From NCBI GenBank assembly GCA_950295325.1, contig OX485803.1, forward strand, positions 71,997,554-72,061,553: DNA of 64,000 nucleotides, in the 5' to 3' direction. Position 1 is the stretch's first letter. Each line of letters begins with the position of its first letter. Under the pieces are notes generated by a model, which ran no database searches, was not told the DNA's origin, and saw only the letters and a program-made list of their open reading frames with translations. Made by a program: the position numbers and the translations under genes. This document shows positions 10,884 to 48,104 of the stretch, one piece after another. This DNA comes from Polytrichum commune (lineage: Eukaryota; Streptophyta; Polytrichopsida; Polytrichales; Polytrichaceae).

Positions 10884-11154
10884 CTTCGAACTCCGGAGCA
10901 GATTAATATTGCGTTCACGGCGCCGTCGAACTCCCTGGAGCAGAGAGAGAAGAAGGTCGGAGAGGAGGGGGTCCTCATTGAAACCGCCACCGTGGCCATC
11001 CCGCTGTTTGACGTGGCAGATTTAGGGTTGCAGATAAAGAGCCTGCGTTGGCTCCACAGGCGCGGAACGGGGGACGCTGTCGCAGGGAGTTCACATTGCA
11101 GCCGTGAAATCTAGGATGCCTGACCCATTTGCCGTGCCTGGATTGAAGATGCTC

Positions 11155-28640: not shown

Positions 28641-28877
28641 GGCATGAGGGGTGAGCAAAAATTCATGAGCAACAAGCAAAAATTCACGAGCGGTGAAGTG
28701 AAAATCTATAACTTATGTGACCTAAAACAGTGGATTTCAGGGAAATAAACGAATTTTTGGACTTATTACCACCGTTTTGAGATGACGTGGTGACAATAAC
28801 TACTCTAAGCAAAGCAATTAAGATTGGTTGATGTGTGGATTATACTAGTGCATGTAAAATGAAAAGGCAAAAATAAA

Positions 28878-29262
28878 TGAGAAGGATTTACGCACACCTA
28901 CGTAGTAAAGTCTTCTCTATATCCACCTACAGATTATTTCCTACTTTATCACTAGCTCATTTCATGATAGCACCAGGCAATGCAACCAACCGGATTCAAA
29001 CCTGGGTTGGTGCAGACCTTCTATTAGTCTCTTATAGTGTTCGCATCCATAGGTTGATGTCTCAAACTTTTTGTTGCCATCTATATATTGACTATTTAGG
29101 ATTGTTTTCCTCCACTCGACGCCATGTTGTCTAATTATCTAATTATGTTAACAATGTTAGTTAACTAAAATTAGTCTGATTCCTAATAGCTAACTTTAAT
29201 TTTTAATGGACCGTGACCCTTAATTCAAACTGCGAGCTGTATGGGTGGCTCATAGATAACAA
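28878..29262 (-). repeat. tRNA-derived SINE-like repeat, copy 1
   Basis: Shares its length with 47398-47694 in the same orientation. On the minus strand it contains a degenerate RNA polymerase III B box at 28992-29002 (GGTTTGAATCC), embedded in CAACC…GGTTGG. It ends in a shared TTAATTCAA…GAGC…TGGCTCA segment. An A box is not clear. No protein is encoded. Confidence 0.5.
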
Positions 29263-29735
29263 ATGTGAATAATGTTTTTTGAAATACTTATATGTCTTAC
29301 TTAGAGTATATCAAATTAAAATAAATTGTTCCAACAACGTACAAAATATGTAAAGAAAATAAATTAGTTCAACAAAGTTTACAATTACAAATGTTCAAAA
29401 TGAGGATGATATAATTTCAAAAATTTAGGAAATAAATGGAATGGATAATAAGTTCACAACATAATACCATCCACATTTACATGAATCTCACAACATTTTA
29501 TTTTTGAATGAAATGTTGATTAAACCACTAGGTAACTATCTTGGAGATAAAACGATCAATTCCAAAGTCCCCAAAAAATATACTATGGACATAAAATACA
29601 GTTAGCAATTCCGTTAAGAAAGAGACGTTTTATCTTGTTGAAGCTAAGAGATGTAGCATGAATGAAATGGTTTTCATTGAGTTGCATGCCACAAACAATA
29701 CAGTAAACATAGTACAAATGCTTTCAACTATAATA
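29263..29735. other. 3' flank of transposase remnant
   Basis: AT-rich, no coding frame. Lies between the SINE-like repeat and the 3' end of the minus-strand transposase. Confidence 0.3.
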
Positions 29736-31778
29736 TTATCCGCAATTCTTGAATTTGATTATCATCTGCTGAAAATCGATATAGGAACATTCTGGAAAAG
29801 ACCCTATGCTCACCTTGTACTCTTTGGCCTCACTCCTGTGCTTAGACACCAAGTCAATGACCGCTCCAATTCCAGGGCTAGGAATAAGAATGACATTAGA
29901 AATTTCAACATCAACAAGAGTAGAAGATTCCCACCTACTCAATTGCGCAACAAAGATATCTCGCCTTAAATTGCAATGAGTGGTTTTGCCATTTTTATAA
30001 AGGAGGTATTTCAAAGGATCAACTTGTTCGGAAATGTTTTGAATTTGTACAGCAATGACCTCATTATTGCCATAAAAAAGTTCTTGTGCCATATGTTGCC
30101 TCTGTTGGAACTAGAAGCCAGTTTCTTCAAGCGTTATAATCTCATGAGCGGTAAGGTTGGTTCTTTTTTGAACCGGCCAAACATGAGGAACATCAATACA
30201 AGATTTGACCCACTTGCGTCAAGTACCTTTGACATACCTTGCAATATTGTTAGGGCAGAAGGAAACGAACTGCTCGATATCTTGGTTTTTGCTCCGCATA
30301 TGTAAAATTCTAAAATATGTAGGGGCAAGAATTGACAATAATATCTTATGAGTGCATTTTTGCCCAGTCCTAGCCTACACCGTAAAACAACTCTTCTTTC
30401 CCACAAATGGCACTCGACGAATATGCCATTGTTAAACATCGCAGTCACTTTCCTGAACTACAATGACATGATGGACTGGCTCTGCAACATTGGATGTTTG
30501 GTTCCCAATAGATAATGGAAGAACATCAACTTTAAGATCATGCTCTACAAATGCTAAAGAAGAGTCATGCAACTTTGTCTTCAAAGCCTTTGCAGGAGTT
30601 TTTGGGTAAGAAAAATTGATCTTATCGAAACGATGTGAATCATCATCCACGCTTGGTTCTATATGAAGGCGTCGCTTGGCAGAGCCAAATACTTCTTCAC
30701 CAATATATTGTGGGATGTTAACTAGAAAGTCATTTGAACCCGGAAGTTTTTCCATAGCCTTGAAAATAGAAGATAGATTTCATTTTTGTTGGCAATTCGC
30801 AGACAAAGTTCTTCCTTTGTAAGACTAGTGCCAGACGTTTTGCTAGTAAAAAATGCGTTATATCTGGTATATTAAATGAATGCGCGTGAAAAATCATCAA
30901 CAGTTGCTTCATAAATATTGTCCCTTTGTTTTCATGATTGTTTGGTCCAAGAGCCGTGAATTGTTTCGGACAAATTACATAATGGCATCTCTGCCTTCTC
31001 CTCATCTGAAATATCCTATTAAAAAATAGATGTACAATTAGGCAGTATTCATATTGCAGGAATACCATAAGCGTGGACACCAACAAGACAATGTGCAAAG
31101 AGATATAAATACTTACAAGATGCATATAGCCTCCCCATTGATGATAGCAAAAACCCTAAACCCTAAGCCTACACCGTTAAATCCATGCCATAAGTAGGCT
31201 TGAACATCATGAATTTCCGATATCATATCACAAAGAACAATAGTCATCACTTTGCAATAATGAGAGTCATATACATGGCATGCAAAGGTCGTGTAACGCT
31301 TGACACGTTTTACGTGGTCAAACATGACCCATGCATCTTGTAAATCACCACTTGGCTGCATTCTTCGAACCAAGACAACCCTTGAGCCAAGGCCAACCTC
31401 TGACATTTTGAAAACAAACACTTTGTCTCTCTTCTTTCTTTGGCCTGGAAATCTGTTCACCTGCACAAATAGCCAACGAGTTGTTTCCCGCAATTTGCAT
31501 ACACTATCAATGACACCATTCCTACCCATTCGCTTGAATTTGCAAACATTATGGCGTAGTGTAGGATTTGTGAAACTCTCAAACTTGTACATCACTTCTT
31601 GCATCTCAATATCAGATATAAGCAATGGTTTTTCTCCATCGTTGCTAATGAGTTGGTCCCTTAAGAACTCAATGCTTGTTGATATAGCAATTGATGACGG
31701 CGATGCTTTGGGTATTGTGAGCCCAATATTGTGTGATCCCCCCGAGACAACAATATTCTCATTTGAATCAATAATCAT
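29736..31778 (-). pseudogene. MULE transposase, copy 1, catalytic core deleted
   Basis: Homologue of the transposase at 43305-47188. The N-terminal exon (31778-31117) aligns through VNRFPGQRKKRDKVFVFKM, GDLQDAWVMFDHVKR and the first catalytic region VLCDMISE, then jumps straight to the exon end (WGGYMHL in another frame). This removes the second Asp, the C…H motif and the region of the Glu. The intron 31016-31116 (GTAAGT…TAG) sits at the same place as in copy 2. The following exon starts DISDEEKAEMPLCNLSETI and continues through FGSAKRRLHIEPSVDDDSHR. The C terminus near 29736-29880 keeps PSPGIGAVIDLVSKH, but the SWIM finger is degenerate (ECSYIDF instead of HCTCPDL). Many frameshifts; inactive. 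Confidence 0.8.
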
Positions 31779-31899
31779 CAGATATTGATTATTTTTTTAC
31801 ATTGTCTCAATGGACAATATTCACATCGGATTTTATTGGTGGACCTCTTGAAGGTGTGACCAAACAACGCAAAAATGTAAAGTATATTTTTAATTTATA
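31779..31899. promoter_or_regulatory. Divergent promoter region, copy 1 (inferred)
   Basis: Short AT-rich interval between the divergently arranged transposase and methyltransferase-like genes. No defined box stands out; inferred from position only. Confidence 0.25.
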
Positions 31900-34800
31900 T
31901 TGAACATTTTAAATAATATTTCTATTAATGTATTTTTTCAATTTTCTAATACGAATATGATTTTTATGCAAAGTGAAAAAAACGTTATTCATGAAGGATT
32001 GTGGACACCACCACCTACATTGGAAAATCCAACTGAACATGAAGAAAAATCCATCAAGTATACAAAAATGAAACTCTTGGAGCGAAAACAAAAAATCAAT
32101 TCAACATTAAGTGATATATGTGTCGTATAATATCATGTGCCTATCTCTTTATGTCGAATGATTGACATGGAGGTGGTAAAGTCTGCTTTGGACGATGATG
32201 TAGTAATTTTATCGCATTCTTTTTCTCAATGATTATAATCCAGGAACAACTCATTTTATGTCTCAGTTGATCATAAAGAGGGATACACAATTGATGTCAA
32301 TATAATCATAGTGAATGTTAGGGATGAAATATGAAAGAAAAAAATGAAGAATTTGAATCGTATTTGACAGATCATGATTTGGATGCTTTCAAAAATTAAA
32401 TGTTCCATATATGGTATGAAATTCATTGTTTTAAAGCGTGGTATAATACCAAAGAGATAAAAGCGAGTGGTGTTGAATATCATGTAAGCCTTAAATCGAT
32501 AATTATTGATGGAAGAAAGGCAAATCACTCTATTATCACATCTCTTTGCAATGATATCAACATGTAAGTATTTATTTTATTTTATTTTATTTTGAAATGT
32601 TGAAGACCAACAAAAAAAAATGTTGTTAAACCCTTCTTCATTCATACACTCTTCAAAGTGGCAAAATATGGAAGTCAACCACTTGAATGGTGGGAATGAA
32701 TGATTAATCCAAAGCAAATGGCTTTGTGCAAAAAGAGCAAATCAACATCCAAAAAGTGGTATAATATCACATGAGAGGTTTTGGTCGAACATATTTACAA
32801 TATACTTTTTGGTGATTCTTTGAATTTTTGACTATGTTATTTCATATTTTTAGATGAATTTTATTATTCTATACTCATCAATAATTTATATTGTACAGAG
32901 CGAAATTGAGGACGAGATTGTAAAGCAACTGAAAACTATATCAATTTGAAAGATGCAGATTACATCGGATTGCAGTGTCACCATCGATCAAAACCAAAAA
33001 ACGGTCAACATTGGTTAAAATTGTAGTCATCGCTAACCCCAAAAAAATGTACAAAGTTTTATTAGTGAAATTAAAAAAACACTATGACAAAAACGAAGAC
33101 AATGTGCACATGACCCTTGATCGCCTCCATCGTCTTTGTCAATCTCAAGTTGACTCCACAGAGAAAACAAAATGGCTAAAGTTGTGGAATGTTGATGATG
33201 ACACAAAACATGCTACATTTTTTCCTTCAGAACTTGGCGGAAATGGCGCATTGGATCCATGGCTGAGGAGAAAAAACATTTTGGTGGCAAGTATTTATAT
33301 TTGAAATTTATTATTTGATATGTGATGTGTTTATGTACTATAAATGTTTTTTATATTAAGTGTTTTTTCTTTATATTATAAAGCTCAAACAAGATGCACA
33401 AAAAAAAATCAACTACTATATCAATCATGATAATATAACAGAACGATTGGGGATGGATAATATGACTCCGGATATTCCGGATGTTGTCTCATATATTACA
33501 ACATGGGAGAAAAATTTGAAGACATGGCATTTTTAGTGGAAATACCCACTAAGGTGAATGCAAAGACTGTGTGGAGGAACAACATATGGAAAGACCAACC
33601 AGGTTCTACTGCAATCATGTGTCATATAATTTATTGCTACATTAAATTCATCTTGATTGCAACTGGAAAACTTCAAGGTCGTCCATCATGGTAGTCTTCT
33701 CGGACATTTGCTGAAGGAATATTTTGGAACGCTGAACAAAGAAAATGGCCATCAACACATTGTGAAGGGGGGGATGGTATCTGGACCTTTCCAATGGTTC
33801 TTTACCAGAAGAAGAATTTTTTTTGTTTTAATATTGCAATGCAAGAGTTGAGGAACAAAGAAGTGTTGGTATTAATGTGGGTGAAATGCCAACACTTCAA
33901 CAAAACAACCATCGGAGTCCTTCAATCCACATATTCAATTGAGGAAAAAAATAAAATAATCCATGAGGATAATGACGAATAAGATATTGTTGCAGATCCA
34001 AAGCCACCAACTGGCCGAATGTCATCAAGATCTCAAATTGCAACTGTGCCAAAACCGGGAAAAAATCTTAATTTTATTCCTAAGGTAGGCTTTGTCAAAG
34101 GTGATTGGTACAATTGTCATGTTTTTTTATGAAAAACACAAAAAATCTAGTAATTTCAAAAAGTTAATGTCATGGATGAAAGATGTTTCTTTGGGAAAAA
34201 TAAACAATGTCAATAGAATTGTTGCTAAAGCATGTGTGGATTTGATTATCGTTGAGATTCTAGATGGAATGCCAATCCACGGTATTAACGAAGGCCAAAT
34301 TATTCCTTCTTGGATGTAATTGAAGACAAATGAGTGGTGGGAGACGTTGTTTGATTTTTTTGGAATCAATACTCTCAGACAATGGTTGCACGCTTATCAT
34401 GCGCAATGCAAAGATGACAAGACTCCAAGAAAAAATTATGAGTTATGCACTAGGGACCAGAGATTGTCCAACAAATTTTTTTTTAAGGGAGCATGTCAAA
34501 TCATTCACGATCGTGAACTCTTTACCACAAGATGCTCCTAATGGTGTACAAACTATTATTTCCAACATTCTTCTCTTGAAGAAACCATCTAGTTCATTTG
34601 CCCTTTCAGACGTTGCTAGCTACATTGATCCATTTGTGGACATCAAACAATTGGATGTTTTGTTCAATCAAATAACGAACACAAACATGTGTTTGAAACA
34701 ATGTAGACAACCTTGGAGGGGAGCTAAAGAAAAAAAATCCTTTGTGTCATGTAACAACTCATTGAAGCATGCTCTCCATTACATGGTCATGTATTGGATT

Positions 34801-34937
34801 TGATAGTGGGTACAGGTGCAAGTTTTCATGCTGCAAAAGAAAGTGAAAGACACATTTTTGATTTTGAAGCAGATGAAGAAATACACATGGGGTTATTGGA
34901 TGCTTCATTTCAAAGTTTGAATGTTGAAGCACCCAAT

Positions 34938-34942
34938 GTATC
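34938..34942. repeat. GTATC target duplication, left of LTR B
   Basis: Identical to 36640-36644. Confidence 0.8.
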
Positions 34943-36244
34943 TGTCAGCCCCAAACCCACACCCTTGAGCGTCCTAGTCCCGGTATAGGAATGAGGTCGA
35001 CATGTCTCAATAGATCCTTACTTAGCCTCCGATCTCCACATTTCACCCACAACATAATTGAACTATTCTCTTTATTTCAAGACACGAGGTACTCAGTATT
35101 TAGAAATACTCTCACACCTTGTGGCAACACCAAGACACACTTCTCAACTAAATCCAATCCACACCTAAGCTTCCAACCCAACCTACTCTACTCTCCAATG
35201 CAACCCAAGCCTAATGCCAATTAAGCCCTATCACCCTTAATTAGCTTGCCCTAGTATGAGTTGTCTTCCCAATGTCACCCTCAGCCACCCCACACTATTG
35301 AGTCACTTAACTAACCTACACTACATTATAAAGGCATTAAGGTTACCCAAATCACACATTTGGTTTGCCCTTGTCCATGAATCATTATGCCTCCTCATCC
35401 ACCTAATACCCAGCTAATGTTTTACTTAGCCCTACAACCCAGGTCACTAATCCCTGGACCAGTGAGAACTTGACTCCCCTTCGGCATGAGTCCAGCTCCA
35501 GCTCCGCTAGACAGAGCTTCCTCCCCTGTTTCACAAACCCAACAGATGCCTACAGTCTTAGCTGGATCTCCCGTGGTTAACCCAACCTGGTGGCGGTTGT
35601 GACTTAAACCCAAAAAACGACCTTCCTCTTACCAATCTCTGCTGAACGGAACGTTTCTCTACAGATTTCGACCAGTGAGCTACTCCGAGCTTGGCCAATT
35701 CGAATCTCCTGTCGATGTAAATATCCAGCAACCACATTCGATGAAGGACCGCGGTTCAGATTCGTAATTAGCCTCGAAGCTGGTTACACATTTCTCCTAT
35801 CCACTCCCCCTCGCCTGAATCTCGTAGTCTACTGCCATATTCTTGCATCCTCGAACTTCATTCATTGCCTGATCCAATTACCCACCTCTGGTTTGGCTTG
35901 TATCGCTGCATGAGGTTCCAGTGGTAATCACACATGATTCCCTTCTGCGTTGTCAATCCCTACTTCGCCCTCGGGCTACCTGCTCACTGGCGAATTCAAC
36001 CAGCTCAACCTTAACTTCTGTGTTGGACAGTCCACCCTCTTCCTAAACCATCCCGAATTCCCTGTTTGCTCCCGTTTTACGACCTCCCGACCTCTTCCCA
36101 CATTGGCACAGAGGCCCAAAAGTCCTTACCCAAGATGCGCACTTTGAGCTGTACCCATACTTCCCACTCCTGGGGTCTGGGCCAACCACCGAATTCCCAA
36201 CCAGCGCATCTCTACCACCTTCAGCCGCCCCCTGTGGCCGCAAG

Positions 36245-36281
<37 letters not shown>

Positions 36282-36639
36282 TTCCAACCGCCTCCACATC
36301 CAGTCCAGGGGCCCGGAAAAGGTTAGGGTCCACAGTGGCACACCCCTCAAATGGCCAGTGGCCTCGCCGTTAATGGCCATGAGTCTCGTCCAACCCTTGA
36401 ACCCTAGCTTGAGGCTTTAAAGCTCAATTCCCACATTTTCACTAACTAATCCCCACTTACTTGCTAATACACTCTCTAAGCCCAAACAACTCTACTTTTA
36501 ATATAAAATTCAACTTCACAAGAAACTAACTAACTATTCACTCTTTTTATGTTTTAGAGTTTTCATAACAAAACCGAATCCTAATTTTAATGACTTCTAA
36601 GATCTAAGACACATATGAGCATATGATTTTGGGCTCATA
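34943..36639 (+). mobile_element. Solo LTR, family B, copy B
   Basis: A 1697-bp LTR starting TGTCAGCCCCAAACCCACAC and ending TTTTGGGCTCATA, with perfect 5-bp target duplications. The middle is GC-richer and includes a (GA)n microsatellite at about 36246-36279. It is inserted in the coding part of the methyltransferase-like pseudogene. No internal region, so solo. Confidence 0.85.
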
Positions 36640-36644
36640 GTATC
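36640..36644. repeat. GTATC target duplication, right of LTR B
   Basis: Matches 34938-34942; the interrupted reading frame continues from here. Confidence 0.8.
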
Positions 36645-37018
36645 TCAAGCACCCTTAGAACCTTCTTCAAGTATTGGTCCAAATTTTGAGGATGTAGCTC
36701 CAAAGCAAGGGCGCAAATTTGTGGCCATCAATTTATCCGAGTAAGTTTTCAAGCTAATTACAAATTTCATACAATAAATTTGTATATGTTAATTTATTTT
36801 TCAATATATTACTTTATATTGTATTAACTTTGTTTTTTTTTTGCATGATTAGCATTGGATTGAAAGATTGGTTTGCAAAAGTGCCAACACCTCCAAATTT
36901 TGGTGCTAACCTACCAACATATGCAAAGTTAATGGCACAACATATGGCCCAATAACAGGAAGTTTCACTAGAGACATCAAGCCAATCATCGGATCTTCAT
37001 CCTAGACGATTAGCATAA

Positions 37019-37825
37019 ATGTTCATGGACATAGAGGCCCATAAAGAGTAAAACTTCACATATATATTGGATCTTCTAGTTTATTGTGAAGATGGAAAAT
37101 ATTAATTAGTTGAAGATGTATTTTGAGAATTCTCCAATGTCAAGTTTTCAATTGGATTGTAATAATTAAAATCAATATACATCTAATGTTTTGACTCTTC
37201 AATGTTTGTTTTTGTTCATGCATTATTCAATTTTCCACAAAATATGTATAAATGTAATACCATAGTCATGAACATGTACCTATAATTTGGTTTGGTTGTG
37301 ACGAAATTGTTTGTGGTATTTTCTACAAGTTCCATATTATGCACCCACTACATTTGAGTGCGCACATGAATGCACCCATGCACCCATGCACCCATTCATT
37401 GCACTCCAAATAGTTGGCCTCTTTTGGCTCCTAAACGTGGTTGTGCTCGTGTTGGCGTTTAGCCTAAAGGTCATGCTCGTATTATTTCTCGCTCATGTTT
37501 TGTCTGCTGATCTTACTTGTGTTCTTTCTTGTGTCCTTGCTTGTTTTCTTCTAACGGTAGCCCTTTACTCTCAATTAGTTTCAACCCTAAACCTATGCTA
37601 TTTCTCAAAGTACCCAAACTATCATTTTTTCCACAAATATTTCATTTGGGAATATTGTGATGTCAGCCCTAATTTGTATGACATCATCTCGTCTTTGTAA
37701 ATTTTTATTTATTTAAATTTATAGTAACACAAAAATAGGCCCTTGCCACATGGTTATTGAAATTTCGAAGAAATAAAGTTTTACTTTTGATGACTAAAAA
37801 TTGAACTCACTGCTCATATCATAGC
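37019..37825. other. Interval between the two MULE copies
   Basis: A 129-codon frame at 37311-37700 is rich in Leu, Val and Phe with no motif and sits in low-complexity DNA; I do not call it a gene. CTCGT…CGCTCATG words near 37455-37485 could be the far terminal repeat of copy 1. Confidence 0.3.
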
Positions 37826-37834
37826 ATGCATGGG
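37826..37834. repeat. 9-bp target duplication, left (ATGCATGGG)
   Basis: Matches 48096-48104 (ATGCCTGGG) at 8 of 9 positions. A 9-11 bp duplication is typical of Mutator-like elements. Confidence 0.6.
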
Positions 37835-37930
37835 GGGGAGTGCTATCTTATGAACGGTGAGCAATGAGCGGTGAGCGATGAGCGGTGAGCGATGAGCGGT
37901 AACTTATGAGCAGTGAGGAAGATGAAAATT
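37835..37930 (+). repeat. Left terminal inverted repeat, MULE copy 2
   Basis: After GCTATCTTATGA it carries about seven tandem 6-10 base words of the type (A/G)TGAGCGGTGAGCGATGAGC, then AACTTATGAGCAGTGAGG. It matches the reverse complement of 47995-48095. Repeated short words inside terminal repeats are candidate transposase binding sites. Confidence 0.7.
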
Positions 37931-38594
37931 TTGGTAATAGGGCCACCAATATCCTATAACCGTGGAATTGTGGCCTTAAAAATGATGATTTTAGGGTTTA
38001 GTAATAAGAGGGTTGAGAAGGATAAACAACATGAAGTCCAAAAATTTATTCATCAGTAGTAGCACTAGACATGAAACTATCTTTTGCCTCATCATCTATA
38101 TATATTCGAGCACCTTTGCATTGCGAATTGATTTTGGAACTATAGCAAGATTCTTCATTTGGATCCGAATCTTCGAGATTCAACATTGCAATTGCAACAT
38201 TCTCGGCATATGATGGGAGACGCGGGCTACGGCTTGGACTTCGTAGGAATTGTCTATGTGCCTAAAACGGGAGACATGTCCTCTTTCCAATCGTATTCCT
38301 GAAATCAAATCGATGAAACATGTAAATAATGTGAAGAAATAAAAATGAACCAATGAATTGAATGAAACGAATGAATTGAATAAAAATTTATTGTATTAAA
38401 ACTTACTCACACTCAAATTCAAGCATCTCCTCATCCGAGAGGTCATCATCTTCTTTTGTGAGATCTTGTATATTCTCCTTAGATGACCCCTCTTTCAAAA
38501 CGTTTTCCAAAAGCGGTTTCAATATGTGCTCAAACATGTCATTATCACCCTCAAATGCAAGAAGATGTCTGCCACATGCGCGTGTTGCTAGGAT

Positions 38595-38621
38595 AGAAGC
38601 TCCAGTGGAACATGTTAAATC
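38595..38621 (-). other. SAM-binding motif I, methyltransferase-like gene
   Basis: Encodes DLTCSTGAS, which corresponds to DPFxGSGTT in amino-methyltransferases; copy 1 has DLIVGTGAS at about 34794-34820. About ten residues later comes GRHLLAFEGD, matching the acidic end of the second strand (GRxxIGxExD) that binds the ribose of SAM. Confidence 0.55.
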
Positions 38622-38865
38622 AACAACGCGTCCATTCGATGGTGTAAACAATTCAATAAGATCTTGAAAAAAAACGCGGCGATTTTTGATATGGCCCCCT
38701 CCAAGGTCTTCCCGATTTTTTAAGAAGCATGTTTTTTTCATCCACAAAATTGAAAAGCAAGTTTTTGCTTTTCAATCCAGTGCCAAAAAAAGTGGAGTTT
38801 GGTTGTCTCGTGGATTTTGTGGTAGTAAAATCCCTTACCAAGACATGAGCCATAAATGCCGGAGT

Positions 38866-38957
38866 CTACAAAAACATGTAAATTGTGTTAAAACTATATA
38901 CAATGCAAATAACACCAAAATAATTAAATAAAAACAATTGTGATGTGTTATACTTAC
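38866..38957 (-). other. Intron in methyltransferase-like gene
   Basis: GTAAGT donor at 38957 and TTTTTGTAG acceptor at 38866 on the minus strand; phase 0. It joins SPTYT to TPAFMAH. 92 bases long. Confidence 0.65.
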
Positions 38958-39302
38958 GGTGTAGGTTGGAGACTCCGGATCCTTGAACACCATGTACGAA
39001 TTGAGGCAAATAAAAGTCCTAAGAACTTTCATGTTGCCGTTGTGTAAGGTTGAATTCAAAACCTTCTTGGTTTGCATATCGATAGCAGAAAATACTATGA
39101 GGATGTCATCATCAGACAAGATGGACTTGCACAAGGACATTGTTGCAACCATCCAGTTCTTGACATATATATTCCAAAGAGGAATTTCAGCAGGTCTATT
39201 GGAGAGGTTGAAGTCAAGACCGTCGGGAAATTGGAGAAAAACCAAGTCAACGGCAAAGGGAGTCGGACTTCCCATGACATGAAATTCGCGATTGTCATTG
39301 AA

Positions 39303-39396
39303 CTGAAATACCACAACATATCACAATATAAGACACAAAATAAAACCCAAATGAAAGTAAGAATATTAGAGAAAATACCAAAACAATAATACTTAC
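39303..39396 (-). other. Intron in methyltransferase-like gene
   Basis: GTAAGT donor at 39396 and TTTCAG acceptor at 39303 on the minus strand; phase 0. It joins REFIEN to FNDNREF. 94 bases long. Confidence 0.7.
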
Positions 39397-39835
39397 GTTT
39401 TCAATAAATTCCCGCCATTGGATCCACTCATGAGGGCCTACATCCACTCCTTCAGACTTATTCTTGACAGCAGTAGATCGAGCAAACGAGAGCGTGAGAA
39501 AGTTCTTCAGTATGAATAACTCTTTTCTCAAAATATCCGTTGGCGCACGATGAATAGCGTCATATTGCTGGAGTAATGAAATTCCAATACATCGCACCCA
39601 GACTTTGAACTTTCGCCTCCAAGTGGATTCTTATCCAAATCATTGGAAAGAACAAACAATTCTTCATGTTGTGAAATTTCCGATTGACCTTGTATTTTGG
39701 TTTCAGGAACATGTTTCCTCTTACGACATTTTGTCTCTTTTGGTTCGGGCTCTCTAAGTTTAAGCTGCACAATTTGTGCTTGCAAAATTGCAGTATCACG
39801 AGGATCCACATTTTTAGCATCATTTATCTGACGGA

Positions 39836-40617
39836 TTGTCTTATCACGGGGGCGGGAACGGGGGGGGGGGGGGGGAACGAAGCGGACGGGGTTGGGAACG
39901 GGGGTGGACGGGGGGGGAACGGGGGGGGGGGGGAACGAAGCGGACGGGGTTGGGAACGGGGGTGGACGGGGGGGGAACGGGGGGGGGGGGAACGAAGCGG
40001 ACGGGGTTGGGAACGGGGGCGGACGGGGGGAACGGGAGCGGACGGGGGGGGGGGAACGGGGGCGGACGGGGGGGAACGGGGTTGGGAACGGAGTGGACGG
40101 GGTTGGGAACGGGGGCGGACGGGGTCGGGAACGGGGGGGAACGGGAGCGGACGGAAGGGGGGGGGGAATTTTTTTTAAAAAAAAATTGGGGCGGACGGGG
40201 GGTAACGGGGCGTACGGGGTTGGGAACGGAGCGGACGGGGTCGGGAACGGAGCGGACGGGGTCGGGAACGGGAGCGGTCGGAGGGGGGGGAAATTTTTTT
40301 TTTAAAAAATGGGGCGGACGGGGGGGAACGGGGCGTACGGGGTTGGGAACGGAGCGGACGGGGTCGGGAACAGGGGCGGACGGGCTCTAGTAAATTTTTC
40401 CCCACTTTACCTTTACTTTGCTGACATGTCATCACACGTGGACATTGTAAATCATACGTGTCCAAATTGGGTTAATGTAATTACACAAAAAAATCGGTAA
40501 AATTCAAGTTCGTCAGGATAAAGACAGCATCGGGCATAATGTCGTGACGGATACGTGTCGTGACGGCATGACATTATGCCGGGATTACCCTCCGTCACGA
40601 CACAATAGACAACCCTG
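39836..40617 (+). mobile_element. Non-autonomous hAT-like element, copy 2
   Basis: Right half (40395-40617) is nearly identical to 26440-26658 and ends in AATAGACAACCCTG. The core is a larger G-rich minisatellite (39845-40385). The left end is degenerate (ACGGATTGTCTTATCACG near 39830) and no 8-bp duplication is visible, so it is truncated or rearranged. It lies within the minus-strand methyltransferase-like gene. Confidence 0.75.
39845..40385. repeat. G-rich minisatellite, hAT-like copy 2
   Basis: Higher-order units: GGGAACGAAGCGGACGGGGT followed by TGGGAACGGGGGTGGACG is repeated three times from about 39870, and two longer units each begin with a T/A-rich break (near 40168 and 40295). The Gly/Arg-rich frames across it are artefacts of composition. 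Confidence 0.75.
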
Positions 40618-40990
40618 TCTACACACAAAAATATTGTAAGTCAAATATTCCATGACAATTTGACAAATTCGTTCTCTCCAAATGTCGTTCTCTCCAAATC
40701 CATTGATTGGTCCTAAAACAAATGAAATAAGTTTCATAAATATTTCAAAACCAGTAGCAACACATTAGCAATAACATTACAAAAACAACAGCAATAGCAA
40801 CAACAATAACAACAGAATACCACGAACACAGAGAAGAATGACAAAAATTATTCTAGACACTGCCATTTGCACCTTTACATACTGTACGATTAGGGTGGCC
40901 GCTCACCCCAACACTACAAGGGCAGACCCTGTGCGTTAACACACAGGGTCTGTGTATCCAACTACAGGTCTACCGAAGTTGGGCGCGAGG

Positions 40991-41173
40991 TTTGGGTCGA
41001 ACGACCCAAACTGTCCACACGGTTTCGATCGAGCGACCCAAACCGCCTACAACCAGTTTGGGTCGAACGACCCAAACTTTCTCCGCGTGATTTGGGTCGA
41101 GCGACCCAAACCACGTTCACAGTTTGGGTCGTTCGACCCAAACCATGCTCACAGTTTGGGTCGAACAACCCAA
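40991..41173. repeat. Hairpin array 1 (TTTGGGTCGaaCGACCCAAA)
   Basis: Six 20-base hairpin units starting at 40991, 41023, 41057, 41091, 41123 and 41154, period 31-34. Each has 9-base arms and a 2-base loop (AA, AG or TT). One unit is degenerate on its left arm. Spacers of 11-14 bases vary in sequence. Confidence 0.8.
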
Positions 41174-41387
41174 ACTGTCCGCAATTTACGCCTGATTATG
41201 CGCAATTACCCAGTCATCACGAAAGTGCAAACAAACCTTGTACTGCACCTGTAGCTGAGAGAGCTTGCAGCGACGAACTCAGGTCCGACAGATGAGAGAA
41301 AAAAGACTGAATACTTTGGGGGTGTGGCAATTTATACTACTCGTCCCTGCAGCCATATTTAGCGTGGCTCTTCGTAGCCCCGCATAG

Positions 41388-41457
41388 CCACTAGAAAGTT
41401 GCCAGCGTAGACCCTGTGAGTTAACGCATAGGGTCTGCGCTGGCAACTTTCTAGTGG
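41388..41457. repeat. 70-bp near-perfect palindrome
   Basis: Two 35-base arms meet at GTTAAC (41420-41425). The outer arm is CCACTAGAAAGTTGCCAGCG and the inner arm contains the AGACCCTGTG.GTTAAC word shared with the arrays nearby. Only three arm positions mismatch. It could extrude a cruciform or, if transcribed, give a long hairpin RNA. Confidence 0.8.
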
Positions 41458-41963
41458 CCACTGTGCGTTAGCGCATAAGGCCTGTGCGTACGGACAGGGT
41501 CTACTTGCATTTGCAGTTTGGAATTGGTAGATTTGCCAAAACTTGTAAAATCTGGAAAAAATGCTAATGGGGTCCAAAATATATATATATATATATATAT
41601 GCTATATTATCTAAATCTCCGTAGTTACAAATTCTTCTCATATTTTTTTTGGGTTTGAAATCATTTTCTTTTCTCATTCTTCTATCTATTTCCTTGTTTT
41701 GGGCCACCTCGTACATTTTGGGTTTCAGGGCAAAAAACAAATTATGCTATTTTGTGTCATTTTCTAGCTCCTATAACGTATTGCATGAATACTTGAGTAG
41801 ACATACTTCTCATTTCTTGCATTCTAACCCCGTTTTCAATAGTTTTTTTGCTCCTAACCTCTGAACATCGATTTAAATTCATACAATAGATATTTGTTTT
41901 ACTTTTAGGCTCTCCTAGTCGTTTTACCTCCCAACTTTTGGCCTTCCTAAATTGCTCTTACAA

Positions 41964-42314
41964 ACCCTGTGCGTTAACGCATAGGGTTTTACCTCCCAAC
42001 TTTGGCCTTCCTAAATTGCGCTTACAAACCTTGTGCGTTAACGCACAGGATCTCTCTTCCCAACTTTTTGCCTCCTAAGTTGCTCTTACAAACCCTGTGC
42101 GTTAACGCACAGGGTTTCTCCTCCCAACTTTTTGCCTCCTAAGTTGCGCTTACAAACCCAAACCCTGTGCGTTAACGCACAGGGTTTTAGCTCCCAACTT
42201 TTGGCCTCCCTAAATTGCTCTTATAAACCCTGTGCGTTAACATATAGGGTTTTACCTCCCAACTTCTCGCCTCCTAAGTTGTTCTTATAAACCCTGTGCG
42301 TTCTCCTTCTGACT
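41964..42314. repeat. GTTAAC-centred palindrome array
   Basis: Palindromes with the core CTGTGCGTTAACGCACAG occur at 41964, 42028, 42092, 42162 and 42227, with a half unit at 42291. Period 64-70 bases. The spacer is also repeated (CTCCCAACTTTTTGCCTCC, then TAAATTGC or TAAGTTG and CTTACAAA). Four of the five full units keep both arms or differ by one or two bases. Confidence 0.8.
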
Positions 42315-42782
42315 CCTAGCCTTCCTAAATTTCTGTTATATACCATGTGTTGCTGTGCATTAACGTATAGGGTTTTATCCTCTCCAATTTATAACTTCTA
42401 TAAATTGCTACTACATGACATGTGAATGAACGTACAAGGTTCTCCATTCTAACTTACAACTTATGCACTATCAAATTATGTGAAGGTTGAACTGACTTAC
42501 CTTTTTGTTTGTCGTCTTTTTTGAACCCGTCTTCAATTCGGACTCTGATATACGATCGTCTACATCTTCTTTGCTCTTTGCACCTTCATCATCCTCCATC
42601 GCATCAAAATCCAGTGTCTTCACAGTTTCTTCTACCGTACTCAACAAGTTTCTTTTCCCTTTCTTATTTGCATTCTTCTTTCCCACACTCAGTTTGAACC
42701 TTTTTTTCTCGGAAGTGAAATCCAAAGCTTTCCTACGTCTTCTTTTCGGCCTCACGGGTGTTCTCTCTACATCGTCCACCAT

Positions 42783-43304
42783 CGTTGGTGTCTATGATAT
42801 GTTTTATATCAGGTACTATCATTTATTCTTCCAATGTATCTATATCACAAAATCCGGCGTATATTACGATCACATGTTGTAATTGGCGTTCAATGAACGA
42901 GATATTTCGACGCGTTTGTCATTATGTGTTTATTTTTGTTATATCCGCCAAAATTTTCTTACACCTACTATGTTCTATTCATAATGATCAATAATTTATT
43001 TTTCCAACCAATTTTAATTCTTTCTACATCTACGTCAGTCCACACATATATTTTTTAAATTTCTACCAATACTTTTAGTTTTTGACGCCATTTTGTGTAT
43101 ATCCTACTCGTAAATATTCTATGACTATTATTGTGTTATGTCCACTTCTGTATTATTAGATGCTATGTATCACACGCTTTCATCTCCATCCATTATTGTA
43201 TCACACGTTTTCATTTCCATTCATTTCCTCACACAACTCTATACAAAAGCAATATTCACCCCATATTTTTGTGATGTGTTGTTCATATGTTCTTTTGATT
43301 TTCT
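42783..43304. promoter_or_regulatory. Divergent intergenic region, MULE copy 2
   Basis: About 520 bases between the methyltransferase-like start codon (42782, minus) and the transposase start (43305, plus). AT-rich with no coding frame. A shared bidirectional promoter is inferred from the arrangement, which is the same in copy 1; no specific box is claimed. Confidence 0.35.
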
Positions 43305-46300
43305 ATGGCTACCATTAGAACTCATGGATCTTTTGTTCCCTTCATCTTGCCACTCCAAGATGATGGTCATGTGAGTGTTTCAGAGGAGTTACTTAGTTTG
43401 AGATTCAACCTCCAGATAGGAACCATGTATTTTGAGCATGAGATGTACTCTGCAGATGGAGAGGTGTACGAAACGATTTTGGTTCCAAAAAATAGAACTG
43501 ATGTTGGTTTTATGTGGATCTTAGGACCTGGTTCATTTAGGATGATAGAACTTTCTGAGTCTCAGATGCAAGCTTCAACTGTCATTTTGACAAACGAATC
43601 CGGTACATCCACAGTTCAAATTCCCTCTATCGCACATGTTAAGGTGGAACCCCTTGATGATAGTGTGCTTGTGCTATCAGATTCAGAATATGACATTTGT
43701 GCATTTGTTCATCTTTCAAACACATCGCCATTTCCATTTAGAAGTGTTCATTCTACTCCTTCCCAACTTCCTATACATGTAGCCAAATTCCCTTGCGGTC
43801 TTATGTATAAGAAGGTGGTTCCCCAAATCTCACCTTCTCAACGTCCTCCACTACACCCTTTACCTTCATCTACAGGGTTCACTATGGTTGATGCCTTGAA
43901 GCTGACAAAGTCAAGAAAAAGATCAAAGTCCGATCTTGCATCCATTGATTTTGACAGTATAGATGTTCGTGAAGTCAAGTACTTACCATCTTCTTTTAAT
44001 GGTGATGTTTTGTTTCTCTTGCCTCCTGTGGCACTCAAAGCTCCAAGTACGTATGGTCGCTCAATGGACGGCATGGACAAGATGTGCGACGGTCACCCTT
44101 GGTGCACTACCAAACCACGAATATCCAAAATGACTTTGGACTGTCATTCCGGCGCTCTACTTGTGTTGGTCATCTCCAATGTCATAATGACTACTGTGAT
44201 TATATAAATCGCAATGGGGGCCTCTGGAACAACACTGAATGGGCCGGTTCAACTCCTATCTCATTTGCTGTGGGTGTTGTTCCCCCTATTAAGTCCACTG
44301 TCGAGTGTAAGGTATGTCGTTCCACACCTGTGTGCATTGCTTTGTGTAATGCTCGAATCATATACATCCACTCCACATCCGTTGGAATGTCTAGGGCTTG
44401 CATTCATTTTGGTGTACATGATCACCCTGTGGCCAATGGCACATGCCGTGAATCATTGGACATGGCATACCAATGCGTTGCAAATGAAGTATTGAAAACA
44501 CCCACAGCAAAAAATTCAGCCATAATTATGGCGGCGAGCAAACAATTCTTGGCCGATTACCTTCTCAAATCTCCCGCAAATGACGAAGGTCATCACTTGG
44601 TTGGTTCATCCCTAGAGGTCGTTACGGACAAATTCAACACTCTTGCATCTCCAAATTGTCGTAACTTTGTATCTGGATCAAAGCGTTTTTTGCGTAGTGG
44701 AATGGGAACTATGGATAGTATTATGGCGCTTAAAGACCACTCTGCTTTCAAATTCGTCCATGGTAGTCGGTTCCCAGGGCAGTCAAAGGACAAAGTGTTT
44801 ATTTTTAAGATGTTTGTAGACCTTCTAGGTAGTGGTGTGGAGCTTGTGAAGAAGATGCAAGTCGGTGGGGATATGGAGAATTCATGGATTATGTTTGACC
44901 ATGTCAAATGTTTGAAGGACTGGACGACCATGGTTTGCCATGTGTACCACAGTCGATACTATAAAGTGTTGATTATTGCATGTTGTGACATGCAATCTGA
45001 AGATGGTGCAGCACAAATTCTCTTTTGGAAAAATTTGAATGCTGTCATGGCAGAAAATGGTGTACCAAACGTAAACTTCAAAGGGTTTATGGCTGATAGT
45101 GCTCAAGCTAATTGGAATGCGGTGAGGGCGATTTACGGGGATGGTGATCCAAGTCTACCCATGGTTGCACGTGAGTGTACATGTCTTTTCCATTGGTCCG
45201 CAAGCTTGGATAAGGTAACCCAAAAGTATATCAAACCATCCTTGCAATTTCAACACAAACAAATATGCAAGGATTACAAAGACGCGAAAACAATGGACGA
45301 CGCTGAGACCAAGTACCATGTGATTCGTTCTTGGTGGTTATCATCTGGAGCTACCTCCGAAGAAGGCATCCTTGGCCTTTCAGAGTGGTTGGGATTTTGG
45401 CACTTTCGTTACAGACAATGGGGTGGCCATATGCTACTTGTAAGTACATATCAAACTTCATTACTCAATGTAATATATCTTATGTTTTTCTTATCTTTGT
45501 TTTTCTGTGTTGTTCATAGGATATGACAATAGAAGAGCGTGCGGGAATGCCAACATGCAACCTTGCAGAGACTGTACACAACAAACAACAAATAGTTTGG
45601 GTCGTTCGACCCAAATCTTGTATGCAGTTTGGGTCGTTTGACCCAAACCTTGTAGGCAGTTTGGGTTATTCGACTCAAACGTGGCAGCTATTTTGGGTCG
45701 AACGACCCAAACCTAGATATATAATCTATCTTATGTTTGTCTTATACTTGTATTTGTATGTTGTTCATATGCTAATTGTAAGTACATATCAAACTTCATT
45801 ATTCACTGTCATTCACTATCTTGCCACTGATATATAATATATCTTATGTTTTTTTTATTCTTGTATTTGTGTGTTGTTCATAGGATATGACAATAGAAGA
45901 GCGTGTAGCAATGCCAACATGCAACCTTGCAGAGACTGTATACAACAAATGGCTCCAACAGTCCGGCAACAAGATGACTTGTTTATATGAAGCTACAGTG
46001 GACGACATGATCCGTGCCTTCATGCAAATTGCAAATTACCGGACATGGTTGAAAGGGGGGTCTGATGGTAAAGGTCCTGATTCGGCATCCTTGAAACTCA
46101 AAGCGGCTGCCAGGTGTGGAGATCCAAAAATGTTGGCCGATGCCATAAAGTCTTATCCAGGGGTAGAAGACGTCAACACTAGAGATTGTGCATTGGAAGG
46201 GTCAGAGCTCTTTGGTTCCACCAAACGCAAACTCAACCTACCACCGGGTGCTGATTGTGACTCTCATCGACCCGACAAAGTGAACTATTCCATTCCTCGT

Positions 46301-47188
46301 CCCAACACCCGAGGAACTCGTCAACGCATAGAAGAATCGTTGAGTTCTGCAATTCGTGGTGTGGCTCATACTACATCCGTGTTAGAGACAAATTGTCTTG
46401 CTTCCAAGTGGCACATTGCAAGATTACCACCCAACTCAGCCAAACGATGTTGGGCACTGCAGGCCATCACAGGGCTCAGAAAGGAATTTCGCTCTCCCAA
46501 CAATGTGGAGTATGAATTTTGGTTTTGCCCTGACGACATCAAACGTTGTGTGAGTGGCAGTAAGAAGAAATATGTGTTGGACTGGCCTTTAGTACCCAAC
46601 ACGTGGTCGGTAAAGATAGGTACCAATCTATCGCGAGAGGAGGTTTTGGCACTTGAAGATGCTGGATTTCAACTACAGCAGAGGGAGGCATTGTCTCCTC
46701 GTCGTAGGCTTTCAACAATCGCAACTCTCCCCATCCCTCGCTCGCATTTTTCTATGCCACCAAACCCGGACGCCCACCCTACATTCAGGTTTGGGAAGAC
46801 AGTGCGTCGTAATCCAACAGCACCGCTAGCGGATCACAAAAACAAATGGGAGAGCGCCGGACTCATGGAGGGTTACTATGTGGTTGGGGTCACTGCCATT
46901 CCATATCCGGGCTTTGGAGTGATAATCAACATTGTCTCCAAGCATGATATCACATATCATGTCACAATTGGCGACATCCCGCATTGCACATGCCCGGATT
47001 TAACAAAATTGTCCTCTCATGCATTGGGAAAGAAAGGAAAATGGGTGTATTGTAAACATCTTTATTATGTGTTTAGATTTTTGTGCAAAGTGGATTACGA
47101 GAGTGACAAGTTCATTCATGCACCTACATATACCTATAACGAGGTCATGCGACTACTTGAACTTGCTGGTATTGTAGAGTGTGAGTAG
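43305..47188 (+). CDS. MULE transposase with SWIM zinc finger, one frameshift
   Basis: Transposase of about 1,150 residues in two exons, with one frameshift near 44110. N-terminal part: an N-domain rich in Ser/Pro. Then a zinc-binding segment spans the frameshift (DGHPWC, CVGHLQCHNDYCDY) and continues VCRSTPVCIALC and RACIHFGVHDHPVANGTCRE, possibly of WRKY-GCM1 type. Catalytic region near 44930-45190: HSRYYKVLIIACCDMQSED (first Asp), NFKGFMADSAQANWNAV (second Asp), RECTCLFHW (C..H). The Glu is probably in the EEGILGLSEW region. The intron 45440-45883 (GTAAGT…TAG) contains a duplicated exon start. The second exon (45884-47188) carries FGSTKRKLNLPPGADCD, PYPGFGVIINIVSKH and a C-terminal SWIM finger (HCTCPDL … WVYCKHLYYVF). 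Start at 43305 is the first Met of the long frame. It is the best preserved gene in the window. Confidence 0.75.
45440..45883 (+). other. Transposase intron with duplicated exon start
   Basis: Donor GTAAGT at 45440; the functional acceptor is inferred at 45883. An earlier acceptor at 45519 is followed by a copy of the exon start (DMTIEERAGMPTCNLAETV), then four hairpin repeats, then a second copy of the intron start (TTGTAAGTACATATCAAACT at about 45776). The original intron was probably about 80 bases, like the 101-base intron at 31016-31116. Confidence 0.65.
45596..45711. repeat. Hairpin array 2 (same unit as array 1)
   Basis: Four TTTGGGTCG..CGACCCAAA hairpins at 45596, 45628, 45660 and 45692, with an exact 32-base period. 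The third has two arm substitutions. Same unit as 40991-41173 but about 4.4 kb away, in the other gene's intron. Confidence 0.8.
46980..47100 (+). other. SWIM zinc finger coding segment
   Basis: Encodes IPHCTCPDL, 21 residues, then WVYCKHLYYVFRFLC: a CxCx(n)CxH pattern. SWIM fingers sit at the C terminus of plant MULE and FAR1/FHY3-related proteins and contribute to DNA or protein binding. Confidence 0.75.
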
Positions 47189-47397
47189 TATTGCAAATGG
47201 TCTATTAAGTACCATATATTTGAATGTCAAAATATGACATGTTTTGGTTTGGATTTTTATAATAAAAATCAGCAATGGGCTGGAAGTATTTCAAATGATT
47301 CAGTAACTTCATTTCTATTTAGACTACGACCCAACCGTGAGCGGTTTGATTGATTGACATGGATAAATAATAACAATTTTCTTTAAATAAAAAATAA

Positions 47398-47694
47398 TTG
47401 AGAAGATTCTACGCACATCCGCGTAGTAACGTCTTCTTGGTATCCGCCTATAGATTATTCATGCTTTATCACTAGCTCAATTTGGGATAGCACCAGTCAA
47501 TGTAACCAACCGGATTCGAACCCGGGTTGATACAGACCTAATATCAGTCTCTTACACAACTCGCATCCACAGGCGGATGTCTCAAAACCTAGTAGTTACC
47601 TACATATTGACTATTTCTAATATCTAATTTCCTTTCATTTGTAGATTCTGGGCCTTAATTCAACCCGTGAGCAGTTTGAATGGCTCACAATTAT
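47398..47694 (-). repeat. tRNA-derived SINE-like repeat, copy 2
   Basis: Better preserved copy of 28878-29262. On the minus strand the B box is exact (GGTTCGAATCC, complement of 47512-47522). The shared outer blocks are AGAAGATTCTACGCACATCC, TTTATCACTAGCTCA, CCGCCTATAGATTATT and TTAATTCAACCCGTGAGC. A clear A box and a poly(A) tail were not seen. Confidence 0.55.
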
Positions 47695-47860
47695 GGCACC
47701 TACATGTACGTATAATGAGGTTATGCACCTACTTGAATTTGCTGGTGTTGTGGAATGTGAGTAGTTGTGCAAGTATTGGTTGTAACTACATGTATAAGGA
47801 TGTCAATAAATGACATGTATTGGTTTGGATTATTATAATAAAAATCAGCAATGAATTGAA
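47695..47860 (+). repeat. Duplicated transposase 3' end
   Basis: Diverged copy of 47125-47285: the last 24 codons (APTYTYNEVMRLLELAGIVE in the original), the stop and about 90 bases of 3' flank. It follows the SINE-like repeat. A short GTGAGCRGTTTGA segment also occurs on both sides of the SINE-like repeat (47337 and 47667), so duplication and insertion are linked. Confidence 0.65.
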
Positions 47861-47994
47861 AGTGTTTTAAATGATCCATGGAAATAGGGCCCTTTCACTT
47901 GTGCTTCATTTAAAATATTGGCAATTTACAATTGAAAATATGCAATTAATTTGTCAAAATTTTGGTTGTGTATCCTAAACCCGTGTGTCTTTAC

Positions 47995-48095
47995 TAAATT
48001 TGGAATCATTGCTCATATGTTACTGCTCATTGCTCATGTGATACTGCTCACCGCTCACCGCTCACTGCTCATCGCTCATAAGATAGCTTCCCTCC
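47995..48095 (-). repeat. Right terminal inverted repeat, MULE copy 2
   Basis: Reverse complement reads GGAGGGAAGCTATCTTATGA followed by GCGATGAGCAGTGAGCGGTG words. It pairs with 37835-37930. Confidence 0.7.
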
Positions 48096-48104
48096 ATGCC
48101 TGGG
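48096..48104. repeat. 9-bp target duplication, right (ATGCCTGGG)
   Basis: 8 of 9 bases match 37826-37834. Confidence 0.6.

Follow-up and report, generated by a model that had tools for sequence, protein, structure and literature searches.

RESULTS

Two inverted copies of a Mutator-like element share a divergent gene pair

We analyzed a 64,000-nucleotide stretch of the Polytrichum commune genome (assembly GCA_950295325.1, contig OX485803.1, positions 71,997,554 to 72,061,553; here called the window, with coordinates counted from its first letter). The window is transposon-rich eukaryotic DNA with spliced genes and a G+C content of 33 to 51% in 2-kb steps. Between 28.6 and 48.1 kb it contains two copies of a single kind of Mutator-like element (MULE), which have diverged and are inverted relative to each other. 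Both carry the same head-to-head pair of genes, a transposase and a partner predicted to be remotely methyltransferase-like. In copy 1 the transposase is on the minus strand (within 31721 to 29598) and the partner on the plus strand (within 34165 to 34930). In copy 2 the partner is on the minus strand (42782 to 38403) and the transposase on the plus strand (43305 to 47188), with gene starts about 0.5 kb apart and diverging. Neither copy is intact, and copy 1 is badly decayed.

The genes of copy 1 were found by tblastn with the joined sequences of copy 2. The joined transposase matched the minus strand from 31721 to 29598 (43% over 189 columns and 29% over 390 columns; E values of 2e-34 and 2e-54), and the joined partner matched the plus strand at 34642 to 34734 and 34758 to 34898 (42% and 40%; summed E value of 3e-9). 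An earlier sequence-only reading of this DNA had proposed two copies with the same divergent pair in opposite orientations, and tblastn bore this out for both genes.

A chance origin, either as two unrelated neighbors or as a spurious frame, would be in keeping with the shortness of the motifs described below, the frameshifts, and the lack of a Pfam match above the cutoff. The probability of such an origin is nevertheless negligible, given that both copies have the same head-to-head arrangement and that tblastn and the profile comparisons (with shuffles) favor real genes. A chance neighbor was ruled out by the tblastn matches in both copies together with a deep split among the transposases (see below), and frameshifted nonsense was ruled out by relatives with open frames.

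The transposase family

The transposase gene is represented by the following features:

43305 to 45439, plus strand: copy 2 transposase exon 1, with a DDE-like core and a frameshift near 44110 (from the P0048 match and the alignment of relatives)
45884 to 47188, plus strand: copy 2 transposase exon 2, C-terminal, with a SWIM-like CTC...CKH (the same exon order is found at 2118 to 3548 of contig L053)
29598 to 31721, minus strand: copy 1 transposase remnant with many stops (from tblastn and the P0111 and P0048 matches)

Searching 5.8 billion proteins with the catalytic exon, in a query with about 25 out-of-frame residues just ahead of the shift near 44110, yielded 213 relatives at E values of up to 0.01. 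Identity ranged from 40 to 88% among the matches listed (best 120 of 213). Relative P0048 matched copy 2 exon 1 in two frames (76% over 43344 to 44114 and 84% over 44111 to 45523) and is continuous where copy 2 shifts frame near 44110. The start of exon 2 also occurs at 45520 to 45592, in a partial duplication (45428 to 45585 and 45766 to 45949, 79%). From 31721 to 31170, the copy 1 remnant was 67% identical to P0111 and 46% identical to P0048; about 120 residues of its catalytic core are missing (the query jumps from 582 to 702).

The core was strongly conserved in 59 long relatives: D515 of FDHVK in 57, the D of CDMQSED in all 59, and D581 of MADSAQANW in 58. C610 and H613 of ERTCLFHW were kept in 59 of 59, and positions 649 and 651 were acids (D or E) in 55 and 54, respectively. 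A succession of D, D, C..H, and an acid is typical of MULE cores, and a DDE core with C..H after the second D was found in the 59 aligned relatives. Together with the 9-bp duplication and the terminal repeats described below, we file the transposase as a candidate MULE lineage.

Several search results weigh against this placement. The pieces and the consensus of copy 2 had no match to the MULE or Transposase_mut models of Pfam. Two of the 59 relatives touched PF00872 (best E value, 0.034), and unrelated families reached values down to 0.011. The CxC..CxH pattern is present in copy 2 exon 2 and in L053, but the SWIM model PF04434 gave a sub-cutoff E value of 0.16. The C-terminal SWIM finger of the sequence-only reading was recovered as a pattern in copy 2, that of copy 1 having decayed. 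A PDB profile search with the transposase gave nothing meaningful. The family is large, yet barely visible to current profile libraries.

Viral contigs were searched for relatives of the partner and, with the same wrong-frame query, of the transposase; none were confirmed in these contigs. In prokaryote genomes, 68 candidate stretches yielded one contig, the 4.1-kb L053 (CADCWO010000080.1) from a cyanobacterial bin, with a spliced two-exon transposase in which both exons are open. This contig is almost certainly eukaryotic contamination of the bin. It ends at the transposase start, and the place of the partner lies beyond it.

Downstream of the transposase in both copies there is a repeat (28869 to 29097 and 47390 to 47616, 80% identical). 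It lies on the same strand despite the inversion of the elements and therefore probably stems from two separate insertions. The repeat has a tRNA-like box (GGTTCGAATCC, minus strand, by eye) and may be a short interspersed nuclear element; no tRNA was detected by ARAGORN.

Element ends

The following end features were identified (TIR, terminal inverted repeat):

37826 to 37834, unstranded: left target site duplication of copy 2, ATGCATGGG (8/9 match to 48096 to 48104)
37835 to 37916, plus strand: left TIR of copy 2, with GAGC units in 7-bp phase (from the TIR alignment and GAGC phase count)
48006 to 48095, minus strand: right TIR of copy 2 (from the TIR alignment and GAGC phase count)
48096 to 48104, unstranded: right target site duplication of copy 2, ATGCCTGGG (8/9 match to the left copy)
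28653 to 28693, plus strand: probable left end of copy 1, with three GAGC units in 7-bp phase (from the phase scan; similarity to the copy 2 end is marginal)

Copy 2 extends from about 37835 to 48095. Its target site duplication is 9 bp long with one mismatch, and its exact frame is ambiguous by 1 to 2 bp because of a G run. The TIRs of approximately 80 to 90 bp were 79% identical over 99 columns (37825 to 37916 against 48102 to 48006), with an alignment score of 95 against a maximum of 31 in 1,000 shuffles. At each end, all seven GAGC units within 60 bp were in strict 7-bp phase. The other in-phase clusters of the window were at 28653 (3/3), close to the start of copy 1 in the sequence-only reading, and at 61960 on the minus strand (3/4). 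Plus-strand sites with at least three phased GAGC units were found at the left ends of copies 1 and 2 alone.

The left end of copy 1 scored 28 against the right end of copy 2. This score was reached by 2 of 1,000 shuffles, and background pieces of the window reach 27. For a candidate right end just before copy 2, the score was reached by 5 to 9 of 1,000 shuffles. Comparing the left and right ends of copy 1 gave no inverted repeat beyond chance (413 of 1,000 shuffles reached the score), and a terminal repeat pair could not be demonstrated for this copy. No target site duplication could be shown for copy 1. Of the MULE hallmarks, copy 2 has both an approximately 9-bp duplication and TIRs, whereas copy 1 retains only a trace of a TIR.

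Structure and state of the partner gene

The partner gene was pieced together from these features:

38403 to 38865, minus strand: last large exon of the copy 2 partner, with PWRGPYQKSP and VDLTCSTGAS...AFEGD and one frameshift inside (from relatives and hhalign; splice sites by eye)
38958 to 39302, minus strand: exon of the copy 2 partner that includes VDLVFLQFPDG at the motif IV position (from N-half hhalign to YhdJ; splice sites by eye)
39397 to 39842, minus strand: upstream exon of the copy 2 partner (from relatives P0002 and P0005)
42501 to 42782, minus strand: putative, highly basic first exon of the copy 2 partner (RPKRRRRK...KKNANKKGKR; position and donor site by eye only)
34165 to 34930, plus strand: copy 1 partner remnant with VDLIIVEILDG, PWRGAKEK, and LDLIVGTGAS (from tblastn and C-piece hhalign)

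The S-adenosylmethionine (SAM)-like motifs LDLIVGTGAS and VDLTCSTGAS are present as the sequence-only reading quoted them. Its common PWRG motif is real in both copies, but in copy 2 it is out of frame with VDLTCSTGAS: the frame changes between PWRGPYQKSP and VDLTCSTGAS. Relatives including P0007 and P0008 read through this stretch in a single frame. The copy 1 partner is in pieces. We found 42 relatives of the last exon. In 20 of them a PW-type motif shares its reading frame with motif I, and 6 span the exon from MAHVLV to its end. All partner relatives listed (42 last-exon and 6 from a longer query) are of the copy 2 type, with no third lineage among them.

The 5' part of the upstream exon, present in P0002 and P0005, is replaced by a G-rich repeat in copy 2, and residues 1 to 12 of P0002 are found identical at 40653 to 40618, beyond this repeat. 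Similar arrays of a G-rich GGGGAACGG...GCGGAC-type repeat lie 13 kb apart at 39846 to 40617 and 26084 to 26658; the portion from 39979 to 40617 is 73% identical to 26084 to 26658, and the array of copy 2 displaced part of the partner exon. At 41921 to 42390 and 40919 to 41458, the large intron of the partner contains tandem units around a palindrome, CCCTGTGCGTTAACGCACAGGG, as well as runs of TTTGGGTCGNNCGACCCAAA-like palindromes that also occur at 45588 to 45715 in the transposase. In copy 1, foreign DNA that includes a GA-rich stretch seems to interrupt the partner from 34945 to 36640, and the gene may continue near 36650 (by eye).

The partner is remotely similar to DNA methyltransferases by profile-profile comparison

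We compared the partner to beta-class DNA amino-methyltransferases with hhalign, using a partner profile of 32 rows and a second profile assembled from Escherichia coli YhdJ and its relatives in viral contigs (37 beta-class enzymes), with 100 column shuffles for each null. The whole partner scored 43.1 (P = 1.2e-5; hhalign probability, 81%; 171 columns) against a shuffle maximum of 23.1. Both halves exceeded their shuffles: the C half scored 37.1 (shuffle maximum, 29.0) and the N half scored 25.5 (shuffle maximum, 21.3). The controls scored 13.1 (reversed partner), 16.6 (DusB), 11.3 (Fis), and 13.9 (transposase profile). As a single sequence, the C piece of copy 1 reached 38.7 (P = 3.4e-6) against a shuffle maximum of 20.0.

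Family and structure libraries gave fainter signals, several of them in the same direction. The N6_N4_Mtase model PF01555 matched the joined copy 2 partner with 18.6 bits (E = 0.0019), short of its cutoff of 26.7, and the copy 1 piece with an E value of 0.17; 3 of 29 partner relatives matched it (best E value, 0.019). M.DpnA was the sole PDB match of the joined partner domain (E = 0.94) and ranked second (0.31) behind exportin-1 (0.18) in a PDB profile run. The 29 relatives weakly matched nine NCBIfam families, six of them methyltransferases or the related CmoA (best, 0.0017), and one last-exon relative is named "DNA modification methylase" by its source. The profile check of the partner was divided, with PF01555 below its cutoff and hhalign ahead of 100 of 100 shuffles for the whole partner and for each half. 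By profile-profile comparison only, a remote kinship of the predicted partner with methyltransferases is convincing.

Some observations weigh against this kinship or its exact label. Searches with single sequences gave weak family matches at most. The N piece of copy 1 was not significantly similar to the methyltransferases (12.4; P = 0.31) and was weakly similar to the partner (22.2; P = 0.0085). The partner profile has an effective number of sequences (Neff) of 1.45 and contains mostly close relatives. Finally, YhdJ alone scored lower against the partner profile (15.6; P = 0.22) than did PrmA alone (19.8; P = 0.053), an ordinary class I methyltransferase. These two scores show that a single sequence does not suffice and that the beta-class label depends on the profile.

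This last result would fit a partner derived from another class I methyltransferase, outside the beta amino-methyltransferase line, with motifs that are merely alike. So would the variety of the weak NCBIfam matches, which comprised a daptide enzyme (10 members; best, 0.0017), CmoA (4 members), PRK13699 (3), RlmD (2), CpaM (1), and Erm46 (1), with three of the nine families not being methyltransferases. However, N6_N4_Mtase and M.DpnA are the targets of the weak Pfam matches and of the sole PDB match obtained with the joined domain, motif IV is aligned in the N-half run, and motif I comes after the motif IV position with the motif X segment just before it. We consider an origin from another class I line unlikely.

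The catalytic motif of the partner is replaced

The segment PWRGPY(K/Q)KSPRFFQDLI of the partner aligned to the KHPTQKS segment of M.DpnA, which we take to be motif X. It directly precedes VVDLTCSTGAS (motif I), which is followed by LLAFEGD with its acid. Taken together, the alignments of the two halves place motif IV before X and X before I, which is how the permuted beta class is arranged. In the N-half alignment, VDLVFLQFPDG of copy 2 falls on VDLIFADPPYN of YhdJ, with DPPY replaced by QFPD. A separate copy, P0004, has the same motif IV reading (IDLVFLQFPDG). At this place copy 1 has VDLIIVEILDG, which is weakly aligned (tblastn E value, 2.6). The catalytic form (D/N/S)PP(Y/F/W) was thus absent, with QFPD in copy 2 and P0004 and, on the weak alignment, EILD in copy 1.

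Two points count against reading these motifs with full confidence. The whole-length local alignment begins after motif IV, which was aligned in the N-half and global runs only. Motif I was readable in 38 of the 42 last-exon relatives, and its glycine, present in copies 1 and 2, was kept in 20 of these and replaced in 18. The replacement may reflect decay, or SAM may not be bound.

Replacement of SPPY by APPA in an enzyme of bdelloid rotifers eliminates its activity (PMC8885841). Since the rotifer enzyme needs SPPY and the partner has lost motif IV, we think that the partner is no longer a methyltransferase, and its SAM binding is putative. A working enzyme as the default reading was rejected on motif IV. 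Of the amino-methyltransferase-like partner proposed by the sequence-only reading, the kinship survived the hhalign comparison. An enzyme able to mark DNA was not supported, as motif IV is missing in copy 2 and P0004 (and, less surely, in copy 1) and 18 of 38 relatives lack the glycine of motif I.

Alternatively, the partner might still be catalytically active as a methyltransferase, with [QE]xxDG in place of DPPY at motif IV, and modify element DNA (4mC/6mA, i.e., N4-methylcytosine or N6-methyladenine) or some other substrate, either to mark the element itself or to dampen host silencing. The motif X segment and motif I are recognizable, and the replacement residues look alike in two deeply separated copies (QFPDG and EILDG). 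In bdelloid rotifers, an N4 enzyme captured from bacteria acts on transposons (PMC8885841), DIRS retrotransposons carry a Dam-like gene, and other retroelements carry 5-methylcytosine enzymes (PMC5890265). The absence of the catalytic tetrapeptide from copy 2 and P0004, the weak alignment of copy 1 at this motif, the loss of activity in the rotifer APPA variant (PMC8885841), and the replacement of the glycine of motif I in 18 of the 38 relatives nevertheless make an active enzyme very unlikely.

The copies straddle the deepest transposase split

We built a transposase tree of 62 rows from copy 1, copy 2, L053, and 59 long relatives (chosen among the 120 listed of 213), using 193 of 230 columns and a midpoint root. 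Copy 2 grouped with P0048 and P0049 and copy 1, on a long branch, with P0111 (100/100). The deepest split (support, 100/99) separated clades of 24 and 38 rows, with copies 1 and 2 on opposite sides. Correspondingly, the core of copy 1 was 67% identical to P0111 and 43% identical to copy 2. Given the same head-to-head partner in both copies, the simplest explanation is that their common ancestor carried the pair, and on this tree the pair looks older than the deepest transposase split. The alternative is a partner swap between elements, or two captures. Since the two copies fall on either side of the deepest division among the 62 transposases, the proposal of the sequence-only reading that the pairing predates either insertion is supported.

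This depth also bears on whether the partner is a piece of a host gene that was captured, a functionless passenger as in Pack-MULEs. Gene capture by MULEs is common (PMC6446971), both copies are broken, motif I varies, and all partner relatives listed, of which only 6 of 42 span the whole last exon, are of the copy 2 type. However, the same gene in the same place and orientation is found in copies across the deep split, and the PW-type motif and motif I share a reading frame in 20 of 42 relatives. We therefore regard a passenger as unlikely. The motif I count, with the glycine lost in 18 of 38 relatives, raised our rating of the passenger and lowered that of an active enzyme and of a further possibility, in which SAM is still used. 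In the latter, an ancient MULE clade, probably of land plants, would have fixed a methyltransferase-derived gene before the deepest split and kept the altered motif IV ([QE]xxDG) because the protein still uses SAM, as an active modifier of element DNA or as a SAM-sensing, DNA-binding antisilencer; we find this quite unlikely.

Other features of the window

Two further open reading frames (ORFs) lie at 9054 to 9794 (plus strand) and 10443 to 11021 (minus strand). To us, the first looks like a Myb/SANT-type protein and the second like the N terminus of a PIF/Harbinger-type transposase. At 59463 to 59879, an ORF seems similar to the DDE portion of pogo/jerky-type transposases. Neither Rfam (gathering scores) nor a tRNA scan gave any match in the window.

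DISCUSSION

Several MULEs are known to carry second genes (mudrB, mutB, vanB, and vanC [PMC6446971]). Among MuDR (mudrB), Mutyl (mutB), MULE-Solanaceae_1, MULE-Co, and MULE-Phytophthora_1, the transposase often has a SWIM finger, the TIRs measure tens to hundreds of base pairs, the target site duplication is about 9 bp, and a second or antisense ORF is sometimes present, as here (PMC6446971). In contrast to those elements, the second ORF described here is probably methyltransferase derived, and the Pfam MULE models hardly match the transposase. The SET domain is a histone methyltransferase domain with a different fold. The clade of MULE-Phytophthora_1 is listed with SET genes (PMC6446971). In a literature library with few subscription journals, the titles and abstract openings listed on MULEs and transposons with methyltransferase genes showed no MULE with a gene like the partner. 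The word "methyltransferase" is absent from the main text of a MULE survey (PMC6446971) and of a review of plant gene capture (PMC13317346). The statement in the sequence-only reading that no such MULE has been described fits the literature searched and is qualified by the SET-gene clade.

The VANDAL elements of Arabidopsis are multigene MULEs with VANA, VANB, and VANC. VANC binds a short motif that is tandemly repeated in its own elements and causes a loss of methylation (PMC5735166), and these motif arrays resemble the arrays of short phased units at the ends described here. By this analogy, we would guess that the partner binds the GAGC arrays. Unlike the partner, VANC carries DUF1985/DUF287 (PMC5735166); neither was among the Pfam matches of the partner pieces.

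Genes related to DNA methyltransferases are carried by other mobile elements, namely DIRS (Dam-like) and elements of Symbiodinium and Klebsormidium (Dnmt), and DNA transposons with DNMT in marine viruses have been mentioned (PMC5890265). The DIRS, Symbiodinium, and Klebsormidium elements are retrotransposons (PMC5890265), whereas the gene described here lies in a cut-and-paste element and its domain lacks motif IV. The N4CMT protein of bdelloid rotifers is likewise a eukaryotic protein from a bacterial amino-methyltransferase and acts on transposons, but it is a host gene with SPPY and a chromodomain and is not transposon borne (PMC8885841). With E. coli YhdJ, M.DpnA, and PF01555, the partner has in common the motif order, the motif X segment, and motif I; it differs from YhdJ and M.DpnA in that DPPY is replaced, the similarity is remote, and the gene has introns and sits inside a transposon.

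Our leading explanation, to which we give about an even chance on the sequence evidence, is a two-gene MULE lineage whose partner is a beta-class-derived, catalytically dead DNA-binding helper. The first gene would encode a cut-and-paste transposase with a DDE-type core and a SWIM-like finger that acts on the 7-bp-phased GAGC ends and leaves a 9-bp duplication. The second would derive from a beta-class DNA amino-methyltransferase, with the segment of motif X and a good part of motif I still recognizable and motif IV lost. The partner could then serve as a transposition cofactor at the element's own repeats or as an antisilencing factor, in a part similar to that of MURB, MutB, or VANC in other MULEs.

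Both copies have the gene pair, remote methyltransferase kinship is found by profile comparison, motif IV is lost in copy 2 and P0004, and the copies are separated by the deepest transposase split. The inactivity of the partner, its DNA binding, and its role as a helper are what we infer from this pattern. The loss of the catalytic motif from the fold, the putative basic first exon, and the short phased repeats at the ends would fit a DNA-binding helper, and we favor a catalytically dead helper of the MURB or VANC kind over an element-marking enzyme.

Many hosts silence transposons by DNA methylation, and a transposon-borne methyltransferase-like protein is therefore a natural candidate to interfere with silencing or to hide the element. 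If the pairing is general, a methyltransferase-derived protein would join the short list of MULE helpers (MURB, MutB, and VANB/VANC). It would also mean that a cut-and-paste transposon has recruited the fold of a bacterial-type DNA methyltransferase while apparently leaving its chemistry behind.

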